This document shows positions 7,642-21,820 of a stretch of DNA of 23,241 nt, in pieces (position 1 is the stretch's first letter; each line of letters begins with the position of its first letter). The DNA is taken from positions 1 to 23,241 of the IMG/VR virus record IMGVR_UViG_3300048113_000390. The stretch is one strand, 5' to 3'. The translations under genes and the position numbers were made by a program. Origin of the DNA: a virus. Below the pieces are notes generated by a model, which was given only the letters and a program-made list of their open reading frames with translations, did not search any database and was not told where the DNA came from.

Positions 7642-7849
7642 TGCTTGCGTTTGGTGCTTTGATAATGGATATAGGATATACCCAGTACCCTCTTACAAAT
7701 GCAAAGGGAAATGTATTGAGTTTTATATTGTTATAGAGAAGGACGGAAAAGTAAAGAAGTCTAGTAATAAATATAAAGACACTGAGTACAACGATAGGAT
7801 CTGGGAGATATATCAGTGGTTATATGATAAACACTCTAAAAAAGAATGA
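7577..7849 (+). CDS. Hypothetical small basic protein
   Basis: The 90 residues contain a basic front (KVQKLKRKWQRL), Cys residues (ACVWCF; YKCKGKC) and a beta-like middle (CIEFYIVIEKDGKVKK). It is the only ATG in the frame and overlaps the DnaA-domain gene by 65 bases, which is deep for this genome, so the true start may be later or non-ATG. Its TGA overlaps the methyltransferase start as ATGA. No family is recognised. Confidence 0.55.
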   Translation: MARDTISKVQKLKRKWQRLDYSACVWCFDNGYRIYPVPSYKCKGKCIEFYIVIEKDGKVKKSSNKYKDTEYNDRIWEIYQWLYDKHSKKE

Positions 7850-8811
7850 GAATAAACTTATTAGATTTATTTAGCGGTATAGGTGGTTTTCACCTAGGAC
7901 TTGAAAGAGCTGGGTTCAAGGTTAAAGCCTACAATTCAGAAATAGATAAGTATGCTAAAAAAGTATACGCACATAACTTTGAAAATAGCACATATGTCGG
8001 ATCAGTTAAAGATGTTCGAGGAGCAGAACTCCCCAAAATCGATGCCATCACTTTCGGAAGTCCTTGCCAAGACTTCTCAATTGCTGGAAATCGTGAAGGA
8101 ATGGGAGGAGAGCGAAGCAGCCTTATCCTTGAAGCAATTAGGCTTATACAAGAATGTAGACCTCGTTTTTTTATCTGGGAAAACGTTAAGGGAACATTCT
8201 CCTCAAACAATCGCGAAGACTTTGCAGCAATCTTGCAAACGTTTGCCAACCTTGGGGATTATACAATCGAATGGCAACTGCTTAATACAAAGTGGTTTCT
8301 ACCCCAAAATAGAGAGAGAATCTACCTTGTCGGATATCTTGGAGGAAGAAGTGGACAGCAAGTATTTCCTATCGGAGAGTACTGTAAATCGATTAATGAG
8401 CTACAGAGACAACAAGGAAGTTCCTGTACACTCAAAGCAAGATACCGAGCAGATGGAAACGGAAGTTATGTTGTTGAACGTAAACTCAATGCACAAGAAA
8501 CAATAGGAGCAGGGACACTTAGAACTCATAATGATGGTAAAGGTTTTAGAGAAACAAAAGATGGAGATTCTCCTTGTATACCTGCTAGGGCAAGGGAGGA
8601 TGGCTCAGGACAACCTATTATAAACATAAACAAAACTATCCGCAGACTAACACCGATAGAGTGTGAAAGGCTACAAGGCTTTCCAGATAATTGGACACTA
8701 GCTGATGGAATATCAGATACTCAAAGATATAAGATGTGTGGTAATGCGGTTACAGTGGATGTCGTTGAATCTGTTGGAAGATCTTTGATGAACACTCTAA
8801 AAAGTAGATAG
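7846..8811 (+). CDS. dcm: C5-cytosine-specific DNA methyltransferase (Dcm family)
   Basis: The enzyme moves a methyl group from S-adenosylmethionine to C5 of cytosine. The 321 residues contain every core motif in order: DLFSGIGGF (7-15, AdoMet), GSPCQDFS (71-78, catalytic C74), WENVKG (111-116), QNRERIYLVG (154-163), a target-recognition region with Gly-rich segments at about 190-265, RRLTPIECERLQGFPDNW (266-283) and GNAVTVDVV (299-307). It is complete and should be active; the target site cannot be read off. No restriction enzyme partner is visible, so it probably shields phage DNA from host restriction. A second open frame overlaps 7952-8506 (see findings). The start is coupled to the gene before. 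Confidence 0.95.
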   Translation: MRINLLDLFSGIGGFHLGLERAGFKVKAYNSEIDKYAKKVYAHNFENSTYVGSVKDVRGAELPKIDAITFGSPCQDFSIAGNREGMGGERSSLILEAIRLIQECRPRFFIWENVKGTFSSNNREDFAAILQTFANLGDYTIEWQLLNTKWFLPQNRERIYLVGYLGGRSGQQVFPIGEYCKSINELQRQQGSSCTLKARYRADGNGSYVVERKLNAQETIGAGTLRTHNDGKGFRETKDGDSPCIPARAREDGSGQPIININKTIRRLTPIECERLQGFPDNWTLADGISDTQRYKMCGNAVTVDVVESVGRSLMNTLKSR

Positions 8812-10424: not shown

Positions 10425-10531
10425 TTCTTAAACGCAGTAGGGGTTCTTAAACGCAGTAGGGGTGCGGATTCTTAAACGCAGTACCCAGGTTCTTAAACGC
10501 AGTACCCCCCCTCTTAAACGCAGTACCCCCC
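10425..10531 (+). repeat. Five-copy direct repeat array, core TCTTAAACGCAGTA
   Basis: The 14-base core occurs at 10426, 10445, 10470, 10491 and 10512, so start-to-start spacings are 19, 25, 21 and 21 bases, near two helical turns. The first two copies are followed by GGGG and the last three by CCC or longer C runs. A sixth 13-base match lies in the terminase gene at 10199-10211. Spacers of 5-11 bases rule out a CRISPR array. The form is that of iterons: binding sites for terminase, a replication protein or a recombinase. Confidence 0.9.
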
Positions 10532-10741
10532 AAAATTCCAGGTACTATGCACGCATAATAAAAAGTATATTTTTCCTTGCGTATGTAAATAAATTGTTTA
10601 TTCGCGCTCGGGTACCTTTTATATATGGCTGGCCTTTTCATTACTACAAAGGACCACAGAAAAAAAAATATATTTTTTCCTGTTCGGGTTTGATTTGTTT
10701 ATAATTTGTGTATATTTACACTATAACAAAAAACGTATAAA
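10532..10741. other. Leader of the accessory cassette, no gene
   Basis: This A/T-rich leader has no credible reading frame. Two related blocks (AAAAAGTATATTTTTCC near 10562 and a longer-run version near 10667) form an imperfect direct repeat about 107 bases apart. GGGTACCTTT at 10610-10619 is the inverse of AAAGGTACCC at 12868-12877. It ends with the promoter at 10689-10718. Confidence 0.5.
10689..10718 (+). promoter_or_regulatory. Near-consensus Bacteroidota promoter for the cassette
   Basis: TTTG at 10689-10692 and TATATTTA at 10711-10718 are 18 bases apart; only the last base of the -7 element departs from TAnnTTTG. The message would start near 10725, about 17 bases before the ATG at 10742. 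It lets the cassette be expressed independently of the late genes. Confidence 0.5.
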
Positions 10742-10864
10742 ATGAAAAAAACTAACATCACCACCGAAAAAAACGTAATTAAAGCCGTAGACAATTTGAG
10801 CCGCTTAGGTTTGGCCCTTTGCTTTGTCTGGTTATTTTGTCAAATCCTTAATACTTATTTATGA
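10742..10864 (+). CDS. Small membrane protein, first gene of the cassette
   Basis: A 40-codon frame follows the promoter at 10689-10718. A polar, basic front (MKKTNITTEKNVIKAVDNL) leads into one hydrophobic helix (LGLALCFVWLFCQIL, about 22-36). Its TGA overlaps the next ATG (ATGA). No family is recognised. It is likely to sit in the inner membrane. Confidence 0.55.
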   Translation: MKKTNITTEKNVIKAVDNLSRLGLALCFVWLFCQILNTYL

Positions 10865-10989
10865 TATTTATATATAGTACAAAAGATTTGCCAGGTATGA
10901 ATAAAAAAACCTTGGCAACATTGAAAAAAGATTTAAAAGAAGCATTAAAAGAAGTCAAAAATTATGAAAGCAACAATAGAATTAAATAA
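10861..10989 (+). CDS. Small basic helical protein
   Basis: A 42-codon frame coupled to the one before by ATGA. It is Lys-rich and helical (LATLKKDLKEALKEVKNY). It overlaps the SH3-like gene by 26 bases. An internal ATG gives a shorter protein starting MNKKTLATL, which may be the true start. No family is recognised. Confidence 0.45.
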   Translation: MIFIYSTKDLPGMNKKTLATLKKDLKEALKEVKNYESNNRIK

Positions 10990-11338
10990 GAAACTAACAG
11001 CGGCCGAGATCATAGAACTAACAAAGGGCGGCCGTATATTCTCGGCGGCCTTTATTAAAAAGGACGGCGAGTTAAGAAAAGGCCTTTTTCGTTTAGGCGT
11101 TAAAAAAGGCGTAAAGGGCAAAGGCTTTGCATTTGATCCAATTGCAAAAGGCCTGGTGTCGGTTTATGATATGCAAAAACAGGCTTTTAGATTTATCACA
11201 GCCGCGCAGCTTTTAAGCCTTACAGCCCAGGGTGTCCGATGGATATATAAACCAGAGACAGACCAACAAAGATTTAACCGCGTATGGAATGACGGCGGCG
11301 ATATAGACAAAAAGATAAATTATATAAATAGCATCTAA
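10964..11338 (+). CDS. SH3 beta-barrel fold-containing phage protein
   Basis: The 124 residues match the form of small phage proteins usually annotated as SH3 beta-barrel fold-containing: a short helix, then GGRIFSAAFIKKDGELRK (22-39), LFRLGVKKGVKGKG (41-54), DPIAKGLVSVYDMQKQAFRFI (58-78) and a final strand (GVRWIYKP). The function is unknown; the barrel often binds proteins or nucleic acid. Codon use is unlike the flanking phage genes, with many GGC, GCC and CGC/CGT codons. It is followed one base later by the Gp88-like gene, and these two types are commonly neighbours in Bacteroidota phages, from memory. Confidence 0.65.
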   Translation: MKATIELNKKLTAAEIIELTKGGRIFSAAFIKKDGELRKGLFRLGVKKGVKGKGFAFDPIAKGLVSVYDMQKQAFRFITAAQLLSLTAQGVRWIYKPETDQQRFNRVWNDGGDIDKKINYINSI

Positions 11339-11339
11339 G

Positions 11340-12092
11340 ATGAAAAATTACACAATACCTAAAAAACTATTAAGCCCAGGGGCCACAAATGCCAAGACGG
11401 CAAAAAATGAATTAAAGACTTTTATTTTATATCTGGCCCCTTATAACCAAAACAGCAAAAAGATTAATATTTGCCCAAAGGCATCAAAGGGATGCGCGGC
11501 CGCCTGTTTATTTACAGCGGGCCGCGGTGCATTCTCTAATGTAATAAACAGCCGCACAAATAAGACAGAATATTTTCTACACAATAAAAGTTTATTTATT
11601 AAACAGCTTGCAAAGGAAATTGTTTTGGAAGTGGCCAAGGCTAAAAAGAAAGGGGAAAAGATCGCCTTTCGTTTAAACGGGACCAGCGATCTGGATTTTG
11701 TTTACCTATTGAAAAAATACGCGGCCTTGGATATTATCGACCTTTACCCCGTAGCAATTTTGTACGACTACACAAAAATATTAGGCAAGGCAAAAAAATA
11801 TATTAATCACCCTAATTATATTGTAACATTCAGCCGCGCCGAGGACAACGAAGCGGAGGCGGTCCAGGCTTTAAATATGGGCGTTAATGTGTCGGCGGTA
11901 TTTTCGCCTACTTTACCGGATACCTGGCAAGGCTTCCCCGTAATTGACGGGGATAAGTCCGATCTAGTAATGATCTATAACAAGGGCGTAGTACTTGGCC
12001 TAAAAGCCAAAGGACGCGCCCGTAAAGATAGCAGCGGCTTTACTATACCCGTATCAAATAAAACAATTAAACAAACAGAAAAAATATATTAA
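11340..12092 (+). CDS. Gp88-like protein (phage gene product 88 family) with a cysteine cluster
   Basis: The 250 residues carry the family's recognisable core: CPKASKGCAAACLFTAGRG (45-63) with C45, C52 and C56, then NSRTNKTEYFLHN (70-82), RLNGTSDLDF (111-120), LYDYTKI (141-147) and VTFSRAEDN (162-170). The three spaced Cys and the barrel-like order of later motifs hint at metal or iron-sulfur binding, which would be inference. The family was first named in mycobacteriophages and has no proven function. GC-rich codons mark it as part of the foreign-looking cassette. It is flanked by one-base gaps to its neighbours, so it is in the same operon. Confidence 0.75.
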   Translation: MKNYTIPKKLLSPGATNAKTAKNELKTFILYLAPYNQNSKKINICPKASKGCAAACLFTAGRGAFSNVINSRTNKTEYFLHNKSLFIKQLAKEIVLEVAKAKKKGEKIAFRLNGTSDLDFVYLLKKYAALDIIDLYPVAILYDYTKILGKAKKYINHPNYIVTFSRAEDNEAEAVQALNMGVNVSAVFSPTLPDTWQGFPVIDGDKSDLVMIYNKGVVLGLKAKGRARKDSSGFTIPVSNKTIKQTEKIY

Positions 12093-12093
12093 T

Positions 12094-12414
12094 ATGACTT
12101 ATTCAAACAGCGACACAATAAACAAAGCCTTACTAAAGCATTTTAAAAGTAATGCGAACAAAAGAAAAGCCAGGCCGCAAAAATACAAATCCGAACGGCT
12201 TCAAATATCAGTCGAGGTAAAAGATATAATATCCACTCATATCGATAATGATGAGGGGCCTTACTTCAATATTTGCCTAGAATGTTATGATGGGATCGAG
12301 TACTATTTACAAATAGATCCAGCCGACTTTTTGTCTTGGTTTGGTCCCAATAGAATAAAGGACCTAAAAAAGAAAGCATTAAGGAACCTTGAGAAAAGGA
12401 TAGGCAATGAATAA
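12094..12414 (+). CDS. Hypothetical protein of the cassette
   Basis: The 106 residues have a basic front (KALLKHFKSNANKRKARPQKY), an acidic/beta middle (DNDEGPYFNICLECYDG) and a basic C-terminal helix (NRIKDLKKKALRNLEKRI). The start lies in an ATATTAATATG context, similar to but shorter than the element at 8808. It overlaps the next small gene by 8 bases. No family is recognised. Confidence 0.65.
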   Translation: MTYSNSDTINKALLKHFKSNANKRKARPQKYKSERLQISVEVKDIISTHIDNDEGPYFNICLECYDGIEYYLQIDPADFLSWFGPNRIKDLKKKALRNLEKRIGNE

Positions 12415-12586
12415 AACTAAAAGACAATACGACCACGCGCGACAACACGCGCGAGATATTAAAAGGCTTTACCCTATTAAAGAAGCCCTACAGATATTAG
12501 AGGTGGAGAATAAATATTATCTCACAAATAATACCAACTTCCAAACCAGGATTAATTTTAAAGACTTTAACACATTAGTAAAATGA
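12407..12586 (+). CDS. Small basic hypothetical protein
   Basis: A 59-codon frame, His/Arg-rich at the start (KRQYDHARQHARDIKRLYP), with a leucine-rich helix (IKEALQILEVENKYYL) and a polar end. It overlaps the gene before by 8 bases and the next ATG by ATGA. No family is recognised. Coupling on both sides supports coding. Confidence 0.6.
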   Translation: MNKTKRQYDHARQHARDIKRLYPIKEALQILEVENKYYLTNNTNFQTRINFKDFNTLVK

Positions 12587-12723
12587 ACTACTACAGCCCA
12601 TCAAACCCAGAAGAAGAAAGCGGCGGCCACTGCCTACACTGCAGTAACCCAATAGAAGATCCGGACCGCTTCGAAAGTAACTTTTGCTCCAGAGACTGCG
12701 AATTTCTTAACGCTTGCTTTTGA
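12583..12723 (+). CDS. Small zinc-finger-like protein
   Basis: A 46-codon frame with a C-x-x-C pair (CLHC, residues 17-20) and a C-x-x-x-C pair (CSRDC, 35-39) about 14 residues later, the FCS type of zinc-binding treble-clef seen in small regulatory proteins. The last gene of the cassette, it is followed by a terminator at 12751. It probably binds one zinc; DNA, RNA or protein contact is all possible. Confidence 0.6.
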   Translation: MNYYSPSNPEEESGGHCLHCSNPIEDPDRFESNFCSRDCEFLNACF

Positions 12724-12750
12724 TCTGAAATAATAATTAAATTTTGTGGT

Positions 12751-12783
12751 AAATCCCTGGTTAATAGCTGGGGATTTTTTTTT
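12751..12783 (+). terminator. Intrinsic terminator ending the cassette
   Basis: AAATCCC (12751-12757) pairs exactly with GGGATTT (12771-12777), and a run of nine T (12775-12783) follows, partly shared with the stem. It closes the operon that begins at the promoter at 10689. Confidence 0.85.
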
Positions 12784-12821
12784 GTTCTTTCCGACCCTTA
12801 CTTTTTATCACCTGTTCAGAT

Positions 12822-12853
12822 GCGATTTAAGCCCCCTAAGAAGCGATTTAAGC
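12822..12853 (-). repeat. Two inverted relatives of the left-hand array
   Basis: GCGATTTAAGC occurs at 12822-12832 and 12843-12853, 21 bases apart, the same period as the left array. Read on the minus strand the unit is CTTAAATCGC with TAGGGG between copies. The left array has CTTAAACGC with TAGGGG between its first copies. They differ mainly by one inserted T. Confidence 0.6.
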
Positions 12854-12901
12854 GGCTTTGATGGGTTAAAGGTACCCTAGGCCCCACTTTAATAGAAAAA
12901 G

Positions 12902-13000
12902 ACGTAAAACGGAGGTAATTGGGTCGTATATACTCAGTTAGAAAAAATCAACGTAAAACGGAATCCGGGGGGTTGTATATCCTCAATTCAATAAAATCAA
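12902..13000 (+). repeat. Imperfect tandem repeat, two copies of about 49 bases
   Basis: ACGTAAAACGGA begins each copy (12902 and 12951). Both continue with a GGGT-CGTATAT or GGTTGTATAT block, then CTCA, and end in AAATCA. The match is partial in the middle. It may be a duplicated binding site. Confidence 0.75.
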
Positions 13001-13005
13001 AAGCT

Positions 13006-13037
13006 TTAGGGTGTTAGGGTGCTGGGGTACTAGGTTA
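13006..13037 (+). repeat. Degenerate 8-base G-rich tandem repeat
   Basis: Four consecutive units read TTAGGGTG, TTAGGGTG, CTGGGGTA and CTAGGTTA. Three runs of three or more G and one of two could allow a G-quadruplex. It follows directly on the 49-base repeat. Confidence 0.6.
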
Positions 13038-13096
13038 AGCTTCGTAGAAGGACATAGCTATCCTAACGGAATATATTAATCTAGTAAGATTCGGTT

Positions 13097-13132
13097 GAAT
13101 TGGGAATTTGGTCGCTTTATTGCTCCCAATTC
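13097..13132. other. Hairpin with exact 9-base stem
   Basis: GAATTGGGA (13097-13105) and TCCCAATTC (13124-13132) are exact inverse copies around an 18-base loop. No T run follows directly, so it is more likely a protein site or RNA structure than a terminator. It lies just before the tail genes. Confidence 0.5.
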
Positions 13133-13204
13133 CTATTATATTAATATAACCATTTTTTTCTGACACTGTTGTATTTTCACTTATGGTACACTCTAGTTTT
13201 AATT

Positions 13205-13220
13205 TAGTTATAATAGTATG
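13205..13220 (+). promoter_or_regulatory. Start-site element before the tail module
   Basis: TAGTTATAATAGTATG matches 14 of 16 bases of the element at 8809-8824 and ends on the ATG at 13218. It marks the first gene after a long gap, so a promoter role is plausible. Confidence 0.35.
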
Positions 13221-13928
13221 AAGAGAATCCAAATAGACGTCCCCAAATCGCTACGAGGAATAAAGCTAAAAGAATACCAGAAGTTCATCAAGGTATCTCA
13301 AGACAATAAAGATGCTGAAGACCCAGAGTTTCTTAATCTTAAAATGCTAGAGATCTTTTGTGGGCTGACCTTAAAGGAAGCCTACAATATGAAGCTAAAT
13401 GATTTTGGTTTTATCATAAACCACCTTAATGAATTGTTTGAAGCTAAGACGCCATTAGTACACAGGTTTAGTATGAGTGATGTTAATGGAGATGAAGTCG
13501 AGTTCGGCTTTATACCGAAGCTCGACAATATATCCTTGGGTGAGTTTGTTGACTTAGACAACTACATAAACAACTGGGATGATATGCACAAGGCTATGTC
13601 TGTTCTTTATAGACCTGTTACTGCTCAGAAGAAGAATCATTACATAATAGAGGACTATGAGTCCTCAGATAGATATTCTGAGGTATTAAAGGATATGCCT
13701 ATAGATATAGCGTTAGGAGCGTTGGTTTTTTTTTATCGTTTAGGGAAAGAACTGTCAAGTTATTTGACGAATTATTTAGCGGAGGAAATTCAGACCAATT
13801 CTCATTTGAAGCAGGTTTTGGAAGGAAATGGGGATGGTATCAATCAATATATGCAATCGCTCAAGGAGACCTCCTCCGTTTTGACAGAGTTACCAAATTA
13901 CCACTCAGGCAAGGACTTACTTGGTTAG
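13218..13928 (+). CDS. Tail assembly chaperone, zero-frame product (gpG-like)
   Basis: The 236-residue protein begins the tail module. It is helical and acidic, with landmarks KLKEYQKFIKVSQDN (16-30), MLEIFCGLTLKEAYNM, LVHRFSM and LGEFVDLDNYINNWDDMHKAMSVLYRPV (in parts), then MPIDIALGALVFFYRLGKEL. From memory, Bacteroidota phages carry a similar gene early in the tail region. A T9 run at 13726-13734 lies in the LVFFY part, and the -1 frame opens there, so this is the shorter product of a frameshift pair, as in the lambda G/GT system. It would chaperone the tape measure during tail assembly. The role is inferred from the frameshift layout and position. Confidence 0.7.
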   Translation: MKRIQIDVPKSLRGIKLKEYQKFIKVSQDNKDAEDPEFLNLKMLEIFCGLTLKEAYNMKLNDFGFIINHLNELFEAKTPLVHRFSMSDVNGDEVEFGFIPKLDNISLGEFVDLDNYINNWDDMHKAMSVLYRPVTAQKKNHYIIEDYESSDRYSEVLKDMPIDIALGALVFFYRLGKELSSYLTNYLAEEIQTNSHLKQVLEGNGDGINQYMQSLKETSSVLTELPNYHSGKDLLG

Positions 13929-13984
13929 AGTTTGAAAAGGAGAAAATAGAGTTGGAAGCGAAACAATTAAATAAAATAAAGTGA
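13218..13984 (+). CDS. Tail assembly chaperone, -1 frameshift product (gpGT-like), 13218-13733 joined to 13733-13984
   Basis: If ribosomes slip back one base on the T9 run, 172 codons of the zero frame join 83 codons of the -1 frame, giving about 255 residues. The -1 frame is open from 13682 to the TGA at 13982-13984, and has no ATG or GTG and only one late TTG, so it can hardly be started on its own. Its translation reads like a real protein: GRKWGWYQSIYAIAQGD, RVTKLPLRQGLTWLEFEKEK and a charged helical end. From memory this resembles the separate small W-G-W-Y-Q-S-I-Y protein found after the same gene in related phages. Its stop overlaps the GTG of the next gene (GTGA), the coupling seen throughout. 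A single-base sequencing or mutational slip in the T run is the main alternative. Confidence 0.7.
13726..13734 (+). promoter_or_regulatory. Probable -1 ribosomal slippery site (T9)
   Basis: Nine T span 13726-13734. The zero-frame codons are GTT TTT TTT TAT, so T-TTT-TTT at 13727-13733 fits the X-XXY-YYZ slippery rule. A small hairpin (GTCAA 13754-13758 with TTGAC 13764-13768) lies 20 bases downstream and is only weak. Confidence 0.7.
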
Positions 13985-14448
13985 AAGAAATATACCACTT
14001 ACTAGACAAAATCAAAGATAGACTCAGAGCCAATAATATCACAAGTACGGTTACGTTTGGAGATATGATGGAGGTTGACCTGTCAAAGACCTCTATATAC
14101 CCATTAGCGCACACATCAATAGGCAACGTAGTATTTGGTGAATATACTATGACTGCTGATATAGGGGTTATGTTTTTAGATCTAGTTGATAAGAGTAAAA
14201 ACCAAAGTACATTTGACTCTTTTTACGGTAACGACAACATACAAGACATTTACAACACTCAACTTGCTGCTGCAAATGACTTACAGAGTCATTTACGCAG
14301 AGGTGACTTATTTGAGGATAATGATATGAAGATAAGTAATAATGTTATTGCTGAACCGATACAAGATAGATTCGAAAACGAATTAGCTGGGTGGGGAATA
14401 AGTATATCTGTAGAAATGCCTAATAACAATTTTAGTACCTGTGAATAG
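13981..14448 (+). CDS. Conserved phage structural protein, tail or neck component
   Basis: The 155-residue frame starts with GTG at 13981, overlapping the TGA of the frameshift product (GTGA). It reads TVTFGDMMEVDLSKTSIYPLAH (in parts), then VVFGEYTMTADIGVMFLDLVD, a beta-rich pattern common among tail terminator or connector-like proteins. The C-terminus ends in a strand (GISISVEMP). It overlaps the next gene by 8 bases. From memory related phages have the same pattern of a D-V-D-L/S-K then PLAH start. The exact role is not known. Confidence 0.6.
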   Translation: MKEIYHLLDKIKDRLRANNITSTVTFGDMMEVDLSKTSIYPLAHTSIGNVVFGEYTMTADIGVMFLDLVDKSKNQSTFDSFYGNDNIQDIYNTQLAAANDLQSHLRRGDLFEDNDMKISNNVIAEPIQDRFENELAGWGISISVEMPNNNFSTCE

Positions 14449-14899
14449 AGAGAACCTTCGAAAAGTAATGGACAGGTATGCCCCTGTAGTAAAGAAAGCT
14501 ATAGATAGGAGGATGCGTATGGAAGGAAAGTACGTTACTGGTAAAACGGCTAGAGGGGTTTCGGTTAAATCATTTGAACGATCTGAACGCATAGGATTAA
14601 GAGCAAGCTCTACAAAAAGATTTAATGTAATGCATACTGGTAGAAGGCCTGGAGCAACTCCACCTCCTGCTCAAGAGATTAAACAATGGATACAAAATAA
14701 GCCTGGGTTTAATCCGAAGAAGAGTATTGATTCTGCGGCTTATGCTGTAGCCAAGAGTATAGGAGAGAGAGGCTTTGCAGGGAAGGATATATGGGGTATG
14801 GCACTAGAAAGTGTCTTGAGTCGCATATTAAATGATACATCTGAGGCTTACATTAAAGACGTTGAGAAGCACCTAAAAAAAACATCTAAAGATGCCTGA
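14441..14899 (+). CDS. HK97 gp10-like tail component
   Basis: The 152-residue protein starts with GTG at 14441. Features are a helical basic front (KVMDRYAPVVKKAIDRRMRMEG), MHTGRRPGATPPPAQEIKQW (split between 64 and 83), and AKSIGERGFAGKDIWGMALES (in parts). The GRRPG-x-x-PP-x-x-x-I-x-x-W and later I-x-x-x-G pattern resembles the minor tail or head-tail joining gp10-like family. It sits between two structural genes with 8-base overlaps on both sides. Position and pattern agree; the fold is not proved. Confidence 0.6.
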   Translation: MNRENLRKVMDRYAPVVKKAIDRRMRMEGKYVTGKTARGVSVKSFERSERIGLRASSTKRFNVMHTGRRPGATPPPAQEIKQWIQNKPGFNPKKSIDSAAYAVAKSIGERGFAGKDIWGMALESVLSRILNDTSEAYIKDVEKHLKKTSKDA

Positions 14900-15185
14900 A
14901 ACTAAGGTAAATGTAAGAAGCCCATTCCTGTTGAAATACCAGGACTCCAACATTGACTATGTTCAGTTAGATGTGTGGATTTACTCTGGCGATAAAACAA
15001 CAGACGAAGGAAGTATAAAATATACATTTAAGAAGTATCCAGTAAATAACAACGACTACGTCATATTTGACTTAGCCGAAATAATAAGAGACTACCTAAC
15101 GTTTACCTCTAGTACACCACTAAACAACAATACAGGAGATTATGTTAAGTGGGTTAAGACAACTCATAATATAGTAACTACATAA
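14892..15185 (+). CDS. Small structural protein, first of a tandem pair
   Basis: The 97 residues are beta-rich and parallel the next gene: MPETKVNVRSPFLLKYQ, YVQLDVWIYSGDKTTDEG, NNDYVIFDLAEIIRDYL, NNTGDYVKWVKT. About half of the positions match the neighbour by eye. From memory the R-S-P-[FY]-x-x-x, W-I/V-Y-S-G and I-R-[DE]-Y-L motifs form the N-terminal part of a larger structural protein in related phages, so this may be a split domain. It overlaps the gp10-like gene by 8 bases. Confidence 0.6.
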   Translation: MPETKVNVRSPFLLKYQDSNIDYVQLDVWIYSGDKTTDEGSIKYTFKKYPVNNNDYVIFDLAEIIRDYLTFTSSTPLNNNTGDYVKWVKTTHNIVTT

Positions 15186-15186
15186 G

Positions 15187-15474
15187 ATGCCAGAAGTAAA
15201 AATAAATAGCAGAAGTCCTTACTACGTTAAATACTCTCAATCGGGTATGGTTAAGACTTCGATAGATATATATGTATATTCAGGCGTAAAGAATACTGAT
15301 AAAGGCACCGCTGTGGCTACACTAGAGAAGAAACCTCTTCCTGGTGATGATTATGTGATATTCGAAATATCAGGTATAATCAGAGAATATTTAAATGCAA
15401 CATCTGACACCCCCTTTAACAATAACTTGGGTTATGTTAAGTGGGTGCAAATAGAATCAACTATAACAACTTAA
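15187..15474 (+). CDS. Small structural protein, second of a tandem pair
   Basis: The 95 residues repeat the plan of the previous gene: MPEVKINSRSPYYVKYS, SIDIYVYSGVKNTDKG, DDYVIFEISGIIREYL, NNLGYVKWV. One base separates the two genes. This is a tandem duplication that has diverged. The pair sits before a 252-residue structural protein, and all three may assemble together. Function is inferred from position. Confidence 0.6.
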   Translation: MPEVKINSRSPYYVKYSQSGMVKTSIDIYVYSGVKNTDKGTAVATLEKKPLPGDDYVIFEISGIIREYLNATSDTPFNNNLGYVKWVQIESTITT

Positions 15475-18564: not shown

Positions 18565-18707
18565 TAAAGCAGATAATAGAGGGATTGCAACTCCTAGATT
18601 TTTATGATGCTAGTGAAACAATACAATTTGCTAAAGGCAGCCATAAGCTGCCTGAGGGCTTTAAGGAAATGAGACAAACTATAAAACGTAAGCGATATGG
18701 CAAATAG
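18561..18707 (+). CDS. Small hypothetical protein before the tape measure
   Basis: A 48-codon frame starts in ATGA overlap with the gene before and overlaps the tape measure start by 11 bases. It has a helical front (IIEGLQLLDFYDASETIQ) and a basic end (MRQTIKRKRYGK). Both overlaps argue for coding. A small protein in this place might assist the tape measure. No family is recognised. Confidence 0.6.
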   Translation: MIKQIIEGLQLLDFYDASETIQFAKGSHKLPEGFKEMRQTIKRKRYGK

Positions 18708-20292
18708 AATACAGTTTACATTTGAAATAAATGATGCTGGTAAGGTAAAGGTTGATGGGTTAACAAAGTCCTTTGTTAGTTTGGATAATGCCATAAATAA
18801 AGTCAACGTAGACTTAAAAAAGCAAAGAGATGCGTTAGCTAGTTCTAATAGGGGGCTTCAGAACACTATTTCAGATGCTGGCCTGGCAGGAGCAACATTG
18901 ACTGAATTAGGTAGAGCTATATCCGACTCAAACTATGGGATAAGAGGTATGGCGAACAACTTTTCTCAACTCTCTACTTTATTCATCACTCTAGTCTCTA
19001 AAAGAGGTGGTGGAATTGGCGGCGTAACACTAGCCCTTCGGCAGCTAGGAAAGCAGCTTTTAGGTCCTTTAGGAATAATACTAGCATTTCAGAGTATAAT
19101 AGCTCTTCTTGAAAAATTTGCTATTCAAGCGGATGCGGCTAATGCAGCGGCTAAAGGTCTTAAAGAGACGTTTTCCGCCAACAGAAAGTTGGTTTTAGCT
19201 CTTGCCAGGAATACACTCAAATATCAAATATCAAACAAAGCTTTAAGGGAGGAGACTGAACGGTTGGCCGAATCGTCTAAAGAGTTTGCTCAAGGCTTAG
19301 AAAACCTTGGTGATCTTAACGATGACAGTGTTCGTGGGTTGATAGGTAAATACGTTGAACTCCTAGAGTTAGAAGACAAAAGAGCTGACTTGCTTCAACA
19401 GGAAAACGTCGACACGTTTGAGTTGGCAAAAATTACTGATAGAATATTACAGTTAAAGAAGTTATTTGCTAAAACGCAGAAGGATGTTAACATTGACGTT
19501 GGAGAAGAACTTAGTCTTACAGAACAGATTACTAAAGCTAGATCTGAATTAGTAAAGACACTTGCCGAACCTGAAGTTGAATTTGATCCAGACTCTGTTC
19601 AAGTTCTTGACGATTTGGATGTGTTTTTCGATGAGATTGCTAGAGAAATGCCGAATTTACAAGAGGTGATATTTGGTCTTTCCGCAACAGATAGAGAGAG
19701 GGCATTGAGAGATTTGGAAAATCAATTTGGTGACGCTATAAAAACAACCGAGGCTTTTAGGACGGCTCAGATAGCTTTGAATAAGCGTTTCGATGACATT
19801 GAACGTCAAAATAAATTAAATCATTTAGCGGTGATGCTTAAGAATGTAGGAACTTTCTTTCAGCAAATGGCAGTACTTAATGAGGGAAATAAAGATTTAG
19901 CTAAAGCATCGATTATAGCTAACTCCGCAGCCGCAAGTGTTAGTGTGTGGGCGTCTTATCACGCCCTTGAAGCTCAGCCTAAGGGTTTCCTAGCCACTGC
20001 TGGGGCAGTAGCGGCTCAAGCAGCCATAATCGCACAAACCGTAAATGCCCTGAAGTCCGTTGAAACAAGCACTCCTTTAGGTGGTGGCCGCAGCGGATCA
20101 ACTTCTAGCGCTTCTAGTTCTCAAGCTCCAATATTCAATGTTGTGGGACAGTCTGGTGTCAGCGCAGGTCAGCTAGGTAAGACTATAGCAGCAGCTAGGT
20201 CTGAACCAATGAAGGCTTATGTTGTCGCTAATGATATTACTAACGCTCAGGAATTAGAGAATAAGATTATTCAGCAATCTAGCTTAGGTTAA
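18697..20292 (+). CDS. Tail tape measure protein
   Basis: The 531-residue protein has the usual tape measure plan: an N-terminal charged region, a hydrophobic segment (LGPLGIILAFQSIIALLEKF, 122-141), long helical stretches through about 420, an Ala/Ser-rich hydrophobic zone (IIANSAAASVSVWASY; AVAAQAAIIAQTVNAL) and a conserved end. The C-terminal VVGQSGVSAGQLGKTIAAA plus PMKAYVVANDIT match the Bacteroidota phage pattern, from memory. At roughly 1.5 angstrom per residue a tail of about 80 nm is predicted, so the phage should be siphovirus- or myovirus-like. It precedes the protease gene by 31 bases. Confidence 0.8.
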   Translation: MANRIQFTFEINDAGKVKVDGLTKSFVSLDNAINKVNVDLKKQRDALASSNRGLQNTISDAGLAGATLTELGRAISDSNYGIRGMANNFSQLSTLFITLVSKRGGGIGGVTLALRQLGKQLLGPLGIILAFQSIIALLEKFAIQADAANAAAKGLKETFSANRKLVLALARNTLKYQISNKALREETERLAESSKEFAQGLENLGDLNDDSVRGLIGKYVELLELEDKRADLLQQENVDTFELAKITDRILQLKKLFAKTQKDVNIDVGEELSLTEQITKARSELVKTLAEPEVEFDPDSVQVLDDLDVFFDEIAREMPNLQEVIFGLSATDRERALRDLENQFGDAIKTTEAFRTAQIALNKRFDDIERQNKLNHLAVMLKNVGTFFQQMAVLNEGNKDLAKASIIANSAAASVSVWASYHALEAQPKGFLATAGAVAAQAAIIAQTVNALKSVETSTPLGGGRSGSTSSASSSQAPIFNVVGQSGVSAGQLGKTIAAARSEPMKAYVVANDITNAQELENKIIQQSSLG

Positions 20293-20309: not shown

Positions 20310-20327
20310 ATAGTTATATTAATATGG
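20310..20327 (+). promoter_or_regulatory. Shared start-site element before the protease gene
   Basis: Exact 18-base copy of 8808-8825, ending on the ATG at 20324. It follows a gap of 31 bases after the tape measure, so this gene is not coupled to the one before. Confidence 0.4.
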
Positions 20328-21820
20328 AGAGAGTCATAGAATTAATTATAGATGAAGAGAACGAATTTAGCGGAATAGAAGCTATTTCCGTTGTCGAAAA
20401 CCCTGCGATAGAGGAAGACTTCATTGCGCTTAAGAAAGCTCCTGTATTGCTCGCTGAAGTGGATGCAGAGAAGCGTATTCTTATGGGTGCGGCTCTTGTT
20501 CCAGATAAAAAGATTCTTCGGAGAAATGGCGAAGAAGAATACTATATATACTTTTCTAAAGATACTGTAAGAAAAGCCTCTGAGCTTTTCTTGAGAAGAG
20601 GTTATCAATCTAATTCAACATTAGAACACCAAGAAAAACTAGACGGTATGACTGTTGTCGAAAGCTGGCTAGTAGAAGACAAGAAGAAGGACAAGTCCAG
20701 AAAGTACGGACTAGATGTTCCTGTAGGTACTTGGATGGTGTCTATGAAAGTATATAATGATGATGTATGGGCTAAAGTAAAAGCAGGTGAACTGCACGGT
20801 TTTTCTATAGAAGGATACTTTGCTGATAATGCAGAGGAGAGACCCAAAGAGTCTGTTCCTGAAACATTCTGTGAGGAATGTGTCGAGGAGTTAAACGCTG
20901 AATACGAACTACTAGAGGTTTTAAGTGAGCTTTCTGATAAGCAAGAGTTAGAGTCTTATGGAGGGTTCCCAAAGTCAGCAATCAATAACGCTAAAAGAGG
21001 AATAGAACTAAATGAGGGAGTTGGCAATCGTTGTGCTACCCAAGTCGGAAAAGTACGAGGGCAGCAGATCGCTAGAGGAGACACAAAGTTTACAGTATCT
21101 ACTCTTAAGCGGATATACAGTTATTTATCTAGAGCAGAAACATATTACAATCCAGGGGATACAGAAGCTTGCGGAACCATTTCTTATCTTTTGTGGGGAG
21201 GTAAATCAATGCTAACTTGGGTAACGTCTAAGCTTAAAGGACTTAATGAAATTGAAGCAGCCTCCGTCATTATAGACGGAAGGGCTGCATATTCTACTAT
21301 AGAAGAAGCAGAAAAAGCTGCAGAGGATATTGGTTGTGAGGGATACCATACGCACGATTTTGAGGGAGATACTTGGTATATGCCGTGCGAAACCCATAAC
21401 TTAGCTGAAATTGGCCCAAAAGGCGGTGTCAGAAAAAGTCCTAAAGCCCCTAAATCTGATACCCCAAATCCGTCACCGAAAGGTAAGGGAACGGCCAAGG
21501 GTGATGCATCTGGTAAGACAGGTGCTAAAGTGTCTGAAAAAGACAGGGCAACTTTAAAAAAGAAAGCAGATGAATTTAATAAAAAGTATAAGGAGAAACT
21601 TGGATATGGTGTTACTGTTGGTGTTTTGTCTAGCGTTTTTCAGCGTGGTCTTGGTGCTTTTAACACAAGCCATTCTCCTCGTGTACGCTCGGCTTCTCAG
21701 TGGGCTTTTGCAAGGGTTAATGCTTATCTTTACCTGGTAAAGAGCGGAAGACCCGAGAACGCAAAGTACACTACAGACTATGATTTACTGCCAAAGAAAC
21801 ATCCCAAAAGCAGTAAATAA
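20324..21820 (+). CDS. XkdF-like prohead protease with extra C-terminal domains
   Basis: Residues 50-166 match the XkdF family: RILMGAALVPDKKILR, YIYFSKDTV, NSTLEHQEKLDGM with H102, VVESWLVED, VPVGTWMVSMKV and HGFSIEGYF with S161. The His and the G-F-S-I pattern are those of phage prohead serine proteases, which trim capsid parts. A second helical domain follows (GFPKSAINNAKRGIEL to LLWGGKSMLTW, about 213-300), then a GCEGYHTHDFEG-TWYMPC segment (337-355), a Ser/Lys/Pro-rich linker, and a last domain (RGLGAFNTSHSPRV, QWAFARVNAYLYLVKSGRP) like DUF5824. The order is common in phages from memory; the roles of the added domains are unknown. It lies unusually after the tape measure. Confidence 0.75.
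   Translation: MERVIELIIDEENEFSGIEAISVVENPAIEEDFIALKKAPVLLAEVDAEKRILMGAALVPDKKILRRNGEEEYYIYFSKDTVRKASELFLRRGYQSNSTLEHQEKLDGMTVVESWLVEDKKKDKSRKYGLDVPVGTWMVSMKVYNDDVWAKVKAGELHGFSIEGYFADNAEERPKESVPETFCEECVEELNAEYELLEVLSELSDKQELESYGGFPKSAINNAKRGIELNEGVGNRCATQVGKVRGQQIARGDTKFTVSTLKRIYSYLSRAETYYNPGDTEACGTISYLLWGGKSMLTWVTSKLKGLNEIEAASVIIDGRAAYSTIEEAEKAAEDIGCEGYHTHDFEGDTWYMPCETHNLAEIGPKGGVRKSPKAPKSDTPNPSPKGKGTAKGDASGKTGAKVSEKDRATLKKKADEFNKKYKEKLGYGVTVGVLSSVFQRGLGAFNTSHSPRVRSASQWAFARVNAYLYLVKSGRPENAKYTTDYDLLPKKHPKSSK

Follow-up and report, generated by a model that had tools for sequence, protein, structure and literature searches.

The question raised by this locus is how a reading frame nearly devoid of start codons comes to be translated, and whether a single start serves two proteins. 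The window, that is, the whole stretch of 23,241 nucleotides analysed here, is an IMG/VR virus record and derives from a phage that is probably flavobacterial. Within it, the open −1 frame at 13682–13984 contains one late TTG and neither ATG nor GTG, and it overlaps a zero-frame gene at 13218–13928. The first-pass annotation had proposed a tail chaperone gene with a programmed frameshift at this overlap, and the claims are taken up below together with the comparative evidence that bears on them.

Anatomy of the locus

Re-reading of the sequence bore out the overlap of the zero frame with a start-less −1 frame, and the proposed fit of the nine T at 13726–13734 to a T-TTT-TTT site held as well: across the run the zero frame reads GTT TTT TTT TAT (exactly nine T), so that the heptamer at 13727–13733 is in the right phase for a tandem −1 slip. 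The features are as follows.

13218..13928, + strand: zero-frame gene of 236 aa with an ATG start, giving the first (G-like) product; read as an ORF, with homologues and a predicted structure (pLDDT 84)
13726..13734, + strand: run of nine T, read directly; 9 or 10 T in all 37 clusters
13727..13733, + strand: putative slippery heptamer T TTT TTT, phase computed and conserved in relatives
13733..13984, + strand: −1-frame extension of 83 aa plus TGA, candidate C-terminus of a 255-aa product, with a conserved KWGWYQSIYA core
13735..13928, + strand: dual-coded overlap with zero and −1 frames both open; zero-frame openness far beyond simulation, stop densities elsewhere normal
13981..14448, + strand: next gene, 155 aa, whose GTG overlaps the −1 TGA; matches phrog_30964
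18697..20292, + strand: ORF of 531 aa, tape-measure-like by eye only and thus tentatively so named; without family match

After a slip, the protein would continue as LSFRERTV... through to the TGA at 13982–13984, which, as previously noted, shares bases with the GTG (13981) of the gene that follows. The third frame meets a stop at most five codons from the slip site. Computed from the frames, the predicted products are 236 aa and, for the fusion, 170 + FF + 83 = 255 aa, in agreement with the lengths of 236 and about 255 residues given earlier.

Further features of the window are recorded here for completeness. The adjacent ORFs 14892–15185 (97 aa) and 15187–15474 (95 aa) have similar beginnings and look like a tandem duplication. 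A 184-aa ORF (7952–8506) lies in another frame within a gene that, by eye, resembles a cytosine DNA methyltransferase (7846–8811). The region from the terminase to the frameshift gene (10425–13217) holds three ORFs and long gaps, is missing from Nonlabens phage P12024S and looks like an insertion. Finally, the ORF at 20324–21820 carries an XkdF-like protease domain (PF14550) at its start, with matches to DUF3721 and DUF5824 further on.

Conservation of the T run

Homologues were gathered with both halves of the putative pair: the zero-frame query yielded 54 loci and the −1-frame query 592 confirmed relatives, 80 of which were retained. The comparison set comprised 132 loci (P12024S included), which grouped into 37 clusters when the −1 frame was clustered at 80 % identity. 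The phased T TTT TTT is kept in all 132 loci and hence in 37 of 37 clusters, with a run of nine T in 35 clusters and of ten T in two, the latter placed one codon further upstream. Loci matched by the −1 frame of P12024S, as well as three loci from cellular genome assemblies, behave in the same way. When the site was instead scanned for under relaxed terms, with any base allowed at the third position of either Phe codon and throughout the codon before them, 67 of 72 confirmed sites had nine T and four had ten; the remaining one has TTC as the second Phe codon, and its T run lies one codon upstream. The run thus comprises at least nine T at every locus examined, including those with a one-codon displacement of the run.

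In these genes, TTT accounts for 69 % of Phe codons and 33 % of the Val/Ile/Leu codons end in T, from which the chance that a Val/Leu/Ile-Phe-Phe site is spelled T TTT TTT comes to 0.16 per sequence. Since all 132 loci keep the heptamer in phase against this probability, it is not a product of chance; multiplying 0.16 over all 37 clusters would overstate the case because these share ancestry, but the direction is clear. In most clusters the −1 frame lacks an upstream ATG or GTG, and across the relatives it is usually the −1 stop, rather than the zero-frame stop, that overlaps the start of the following gene. A conserved −1 switch at the T run 13726–13734 is, on this comparative ground, strongly supported. 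The alignment of homologues that had been suggested as a check accordingly finds both the T run and the open −1 frame kept, and the opposite outcome, homologues that lack a conserved slippery run and carry a start codon for the second frame, is absent among the 37 clusters.

Two frames open past the slip site

In 36 of the 37 clusters, the zero frame remains open for 56–90 codons past the slip site. Simulations that kept the −1 protein constant and sampled its codons according to the usage at these loci gave zero-frame openings with a mean of about 14 codons, and 0 to 3 % of the simulated sequences reached the observed length in those 36 clusters. This openness is not an effect of base composition, because stops elsewhere match or exceed the simulation: downstream of the point where the zero frame naturally ends, its stops are no rarer than expected (115 vs 93 simulated), and the third frame is near its expected stop count throughout. 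(Inside the overlap, the zero-frame stop count is zero by construction, so the open length is the informative figure.) The distant P12024 branch has a zero-frame extension of only about 20–27 codons.

The −1 domain shows good conservation (58 % mean identity per column, with a KWGWYQSIYA core) that extends back to the slip site (FFLSF). As the zero frame is open far longer than expected, both C-termini look like real dual-coded products, with selection keeping both frames open. Whether the amino acids of the zero-frame extension are themselves selected, as distinct from its openness, is less clear: same-residue codon identity is 0.65 within the overlap as compared to 0.60 after it, and the zero-frame GxGIN motif largely follows from the WGWYQ of the −1 frame. 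That the zero-frame extension is kept open by selection is new here and goes beyond the earlier reading of a single sequence.

Ribosome or RNA polymerase

In the explanation that we consider probable, one start would give two proteins by ribosomal −1 slippage: some of the ribosomes would move back by one base on U UUU UUU, yielding a 255-residue form besides the 236-residue zero-frame form. The two would share their first 172 residues, and the longer one would end in the different, conserved C-terminus of 83 residues. The pair would act like λ G/GT or P2 E/E+E′, that is, as tail assembly chaperones on the tape measure and tail tube. We infer both the ribosome as slipping agent and the chaperone role.

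Slippage of the ribosome on the T run of a tail gene has direct precedent, because P2-type genes shift without a detected hairpin: P2 E/E+E′ and its relatives use T6G, T7G or T7C, in the examined cases with no hairpin found (PMC3091744, PMC3931495). As at the present locus, translation in P2 shifts by −1 at a T run within a tail operon, and the extension has no ribosome binding site and overlaps the start of the next gene (PMC3091744, PMC3931495). The two systems differ in the slippery site (T6G in P2 and T7G/T7C in its relatives, nine or ten T here) and in the overlap (37 nt in P2, about 200 nt here), and no protein homology to the P2 pair is detectable. With λ G/GT the locus shares a common N-terminus and a longer product reached by a −1 shift (PMC5009743). 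The λ shift, however, takes place near the end of G, whereas here the zero frame continues for 64 codons past the site.

Alternatively, RNA polymerase may add one U on the T9 in some transcripts, and the resulting U10 mRNA would encode the 255-aa protein in one frame. We regard such transcriptional slippage as a serious competitor, albeit less probable than the ribosomal reading. Nine A or T suffice for efficient slippage of bacterial RNA polymerase, a property exploited by Thermus dnaX (PMC5009743); in T. thermophilus dnaX, a different gene, a nine-T run gives access to another frame in the manner proposed here (PMC5009743). Runs of this T9/A9 class are present at every locus examined, even where the run has shifted by one codon. 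Furthermore, U_UUU_UUU shifts less readily than A_AAA_AAG on E. coli ribosomes (PMC5009743), and no ribosomal stimulator was found here. In stretches of 50–100 nt from the 37 clusters, no downstream stem-loop was detected (mean z near 0 in a pseudoknot-free model), and a Shine–Dalgarno-like upstream candidate spotted by eye, AGGAG at 13715–13719, is not kept at the related sites inspected for it. On the other hand, the Ts flanking the heptamer can be explained by hydrophobic codons before it and by Tyr/Trp or −1-frame Leu codons after it, and the tail-gene cases known so far are ascribed to the ribosome. Because the extra Ts are explicable by such amino-acid constraints, the sequence alone does not decide the mechanism; by our judgement, which is not a computed figure, ribosomal slippage is favoured and about twice as probable as slippage of the polymerase. 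A more specific proposal is slightly more doubtful still, namely that RNA polymerase slippage on an invariant tract of nine or more T sets the two forms of a tail-chaperone pair and that about 60 dual-coded codons specify both C-termini; if true, it would represent a transcriptional counterpart of λ G/GT.

Identity of the protein pair

Of the frameshifted tail-chaperone reading, the programmed −1 recoding stood up, while the tail-chaperone identity continues to draw on frameshift anatomy and late-operon position, from which we tentatively assign it. Searches of Pfam, NCBIfam and PDB sequences returned no tail chaperone or otherwise named relative. The zero-frame model (pLDDT 84) matches many uncharacterised phage proteins, one BFVD match being named tail assembly chaperone (E 0.31), and a fold search against the PDB gave nothing at E ≤ 0.001. 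A PHROG named tail protein is weakly matched by 2 of 35 members, and the model of the −1 domain (pLDDT 66) is too poor for a structure search. The P2 and λ chaperone families are known to share no sequence similarity with each other.

The frameshift gene is part of the late operon, downstream of the large terminase. A tail chaperone pair is expected between the major tail protein and the tape measure; family searches recognised no major tail protein, and the tape-measure-like ORF is six genes downstream, whereas λ T adjoins the tape measure H. This distance, together with the missing family or structure match to known chaperones, would fit a pair that is recoded in earnest and serves another late function. 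We consider this unlikely, given an anatomy like that of a tail-gene pair: a short shared protein, a start-less −1 extension and an overlap with the next late gene. Ribosomal slippage yielding a tail chaperone pair is retained as the preferred reading.

Cultured relatives, separate genes and errors

Nonlabens phage P12024S carries a homologous pair, gp38/gp39 (PHROG 32199 / 38404), directly after the terminase, annotated as separate hypothetical proteins. Its T9 is in phase and, at NC_018271.1 23136–23830, the −1 frame is unbroken from the phased T9; identity to the present pair is about 24 %, with a zero-frame extension of only 27 codons. PHROG 38404, with its length of 55, represents gp39 in its truncated form.

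The GenBank annotation of gp39 from an internal ATG, and an early TTG, GTG or ATG in some clusters, could point to an independent −1-frame gene that has a start of its own and is reached by translational coupling or re-initiation. This is very improbable: the sole start-like codon in the window is the late TTG, most clusters have none, −1 conservation reaches back to the slip site (FFLSF), and keeping the T run would be unneeded. An artefact or mutation in the T run had been named as the alternative, and homopolymers are error-prone; the gene would then be one continuous frame, disrupted in a single contig through mutation or through faulty sequencing or assembly. Virtually nothing remains for this reading: conservation rules out an artefact, as the identical phase recurs in 132 contigs, the cultured P12024S among them, both frames are held open, and the family yielded no homologue with the two halves fused in one frame.

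Flavobacterium phage 6H shows a single-record break of this sort in a possibly related gene, gp10, which was considered as a second case and rejected, with phages 2A, FPSV-F7, laban6-1 and Ingeline_1 having one longer ORF there. The 6H gene is cut where 2A and FPSV-F7 carry a single ORF of 882 bases, and the break is more likely an indel or sequencing error in that record. The relation of 6H gp10 to the frameshift family is marginal, and its C-terminus does not match.

Significance

The feature is real and of a known kind, such recoding being familiar from the tail-assembly genes of other phages. What is added here is its extent in uncultured phages, a T run that nowhere falls short of nine, and a long dual-coded overlap, which is unusual beside the short overlaps of λ and P2. 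In the open-access literature, we found no published description of this frameshift in the large marine phage group concerned, where it also seems to have gone without annotation. The frameshifted pair can now be identified across several hundred uncultured phage contigs, whose start-less second half can readily be overlooked or is entered as a gene of its own, as happened in P12024S. The Nonlabens phages P12024S and P12024L offer a cultured system in which it may be learned whether the ratio of the putative tail chaperones is set by the ribosome or by RNA polymerase.
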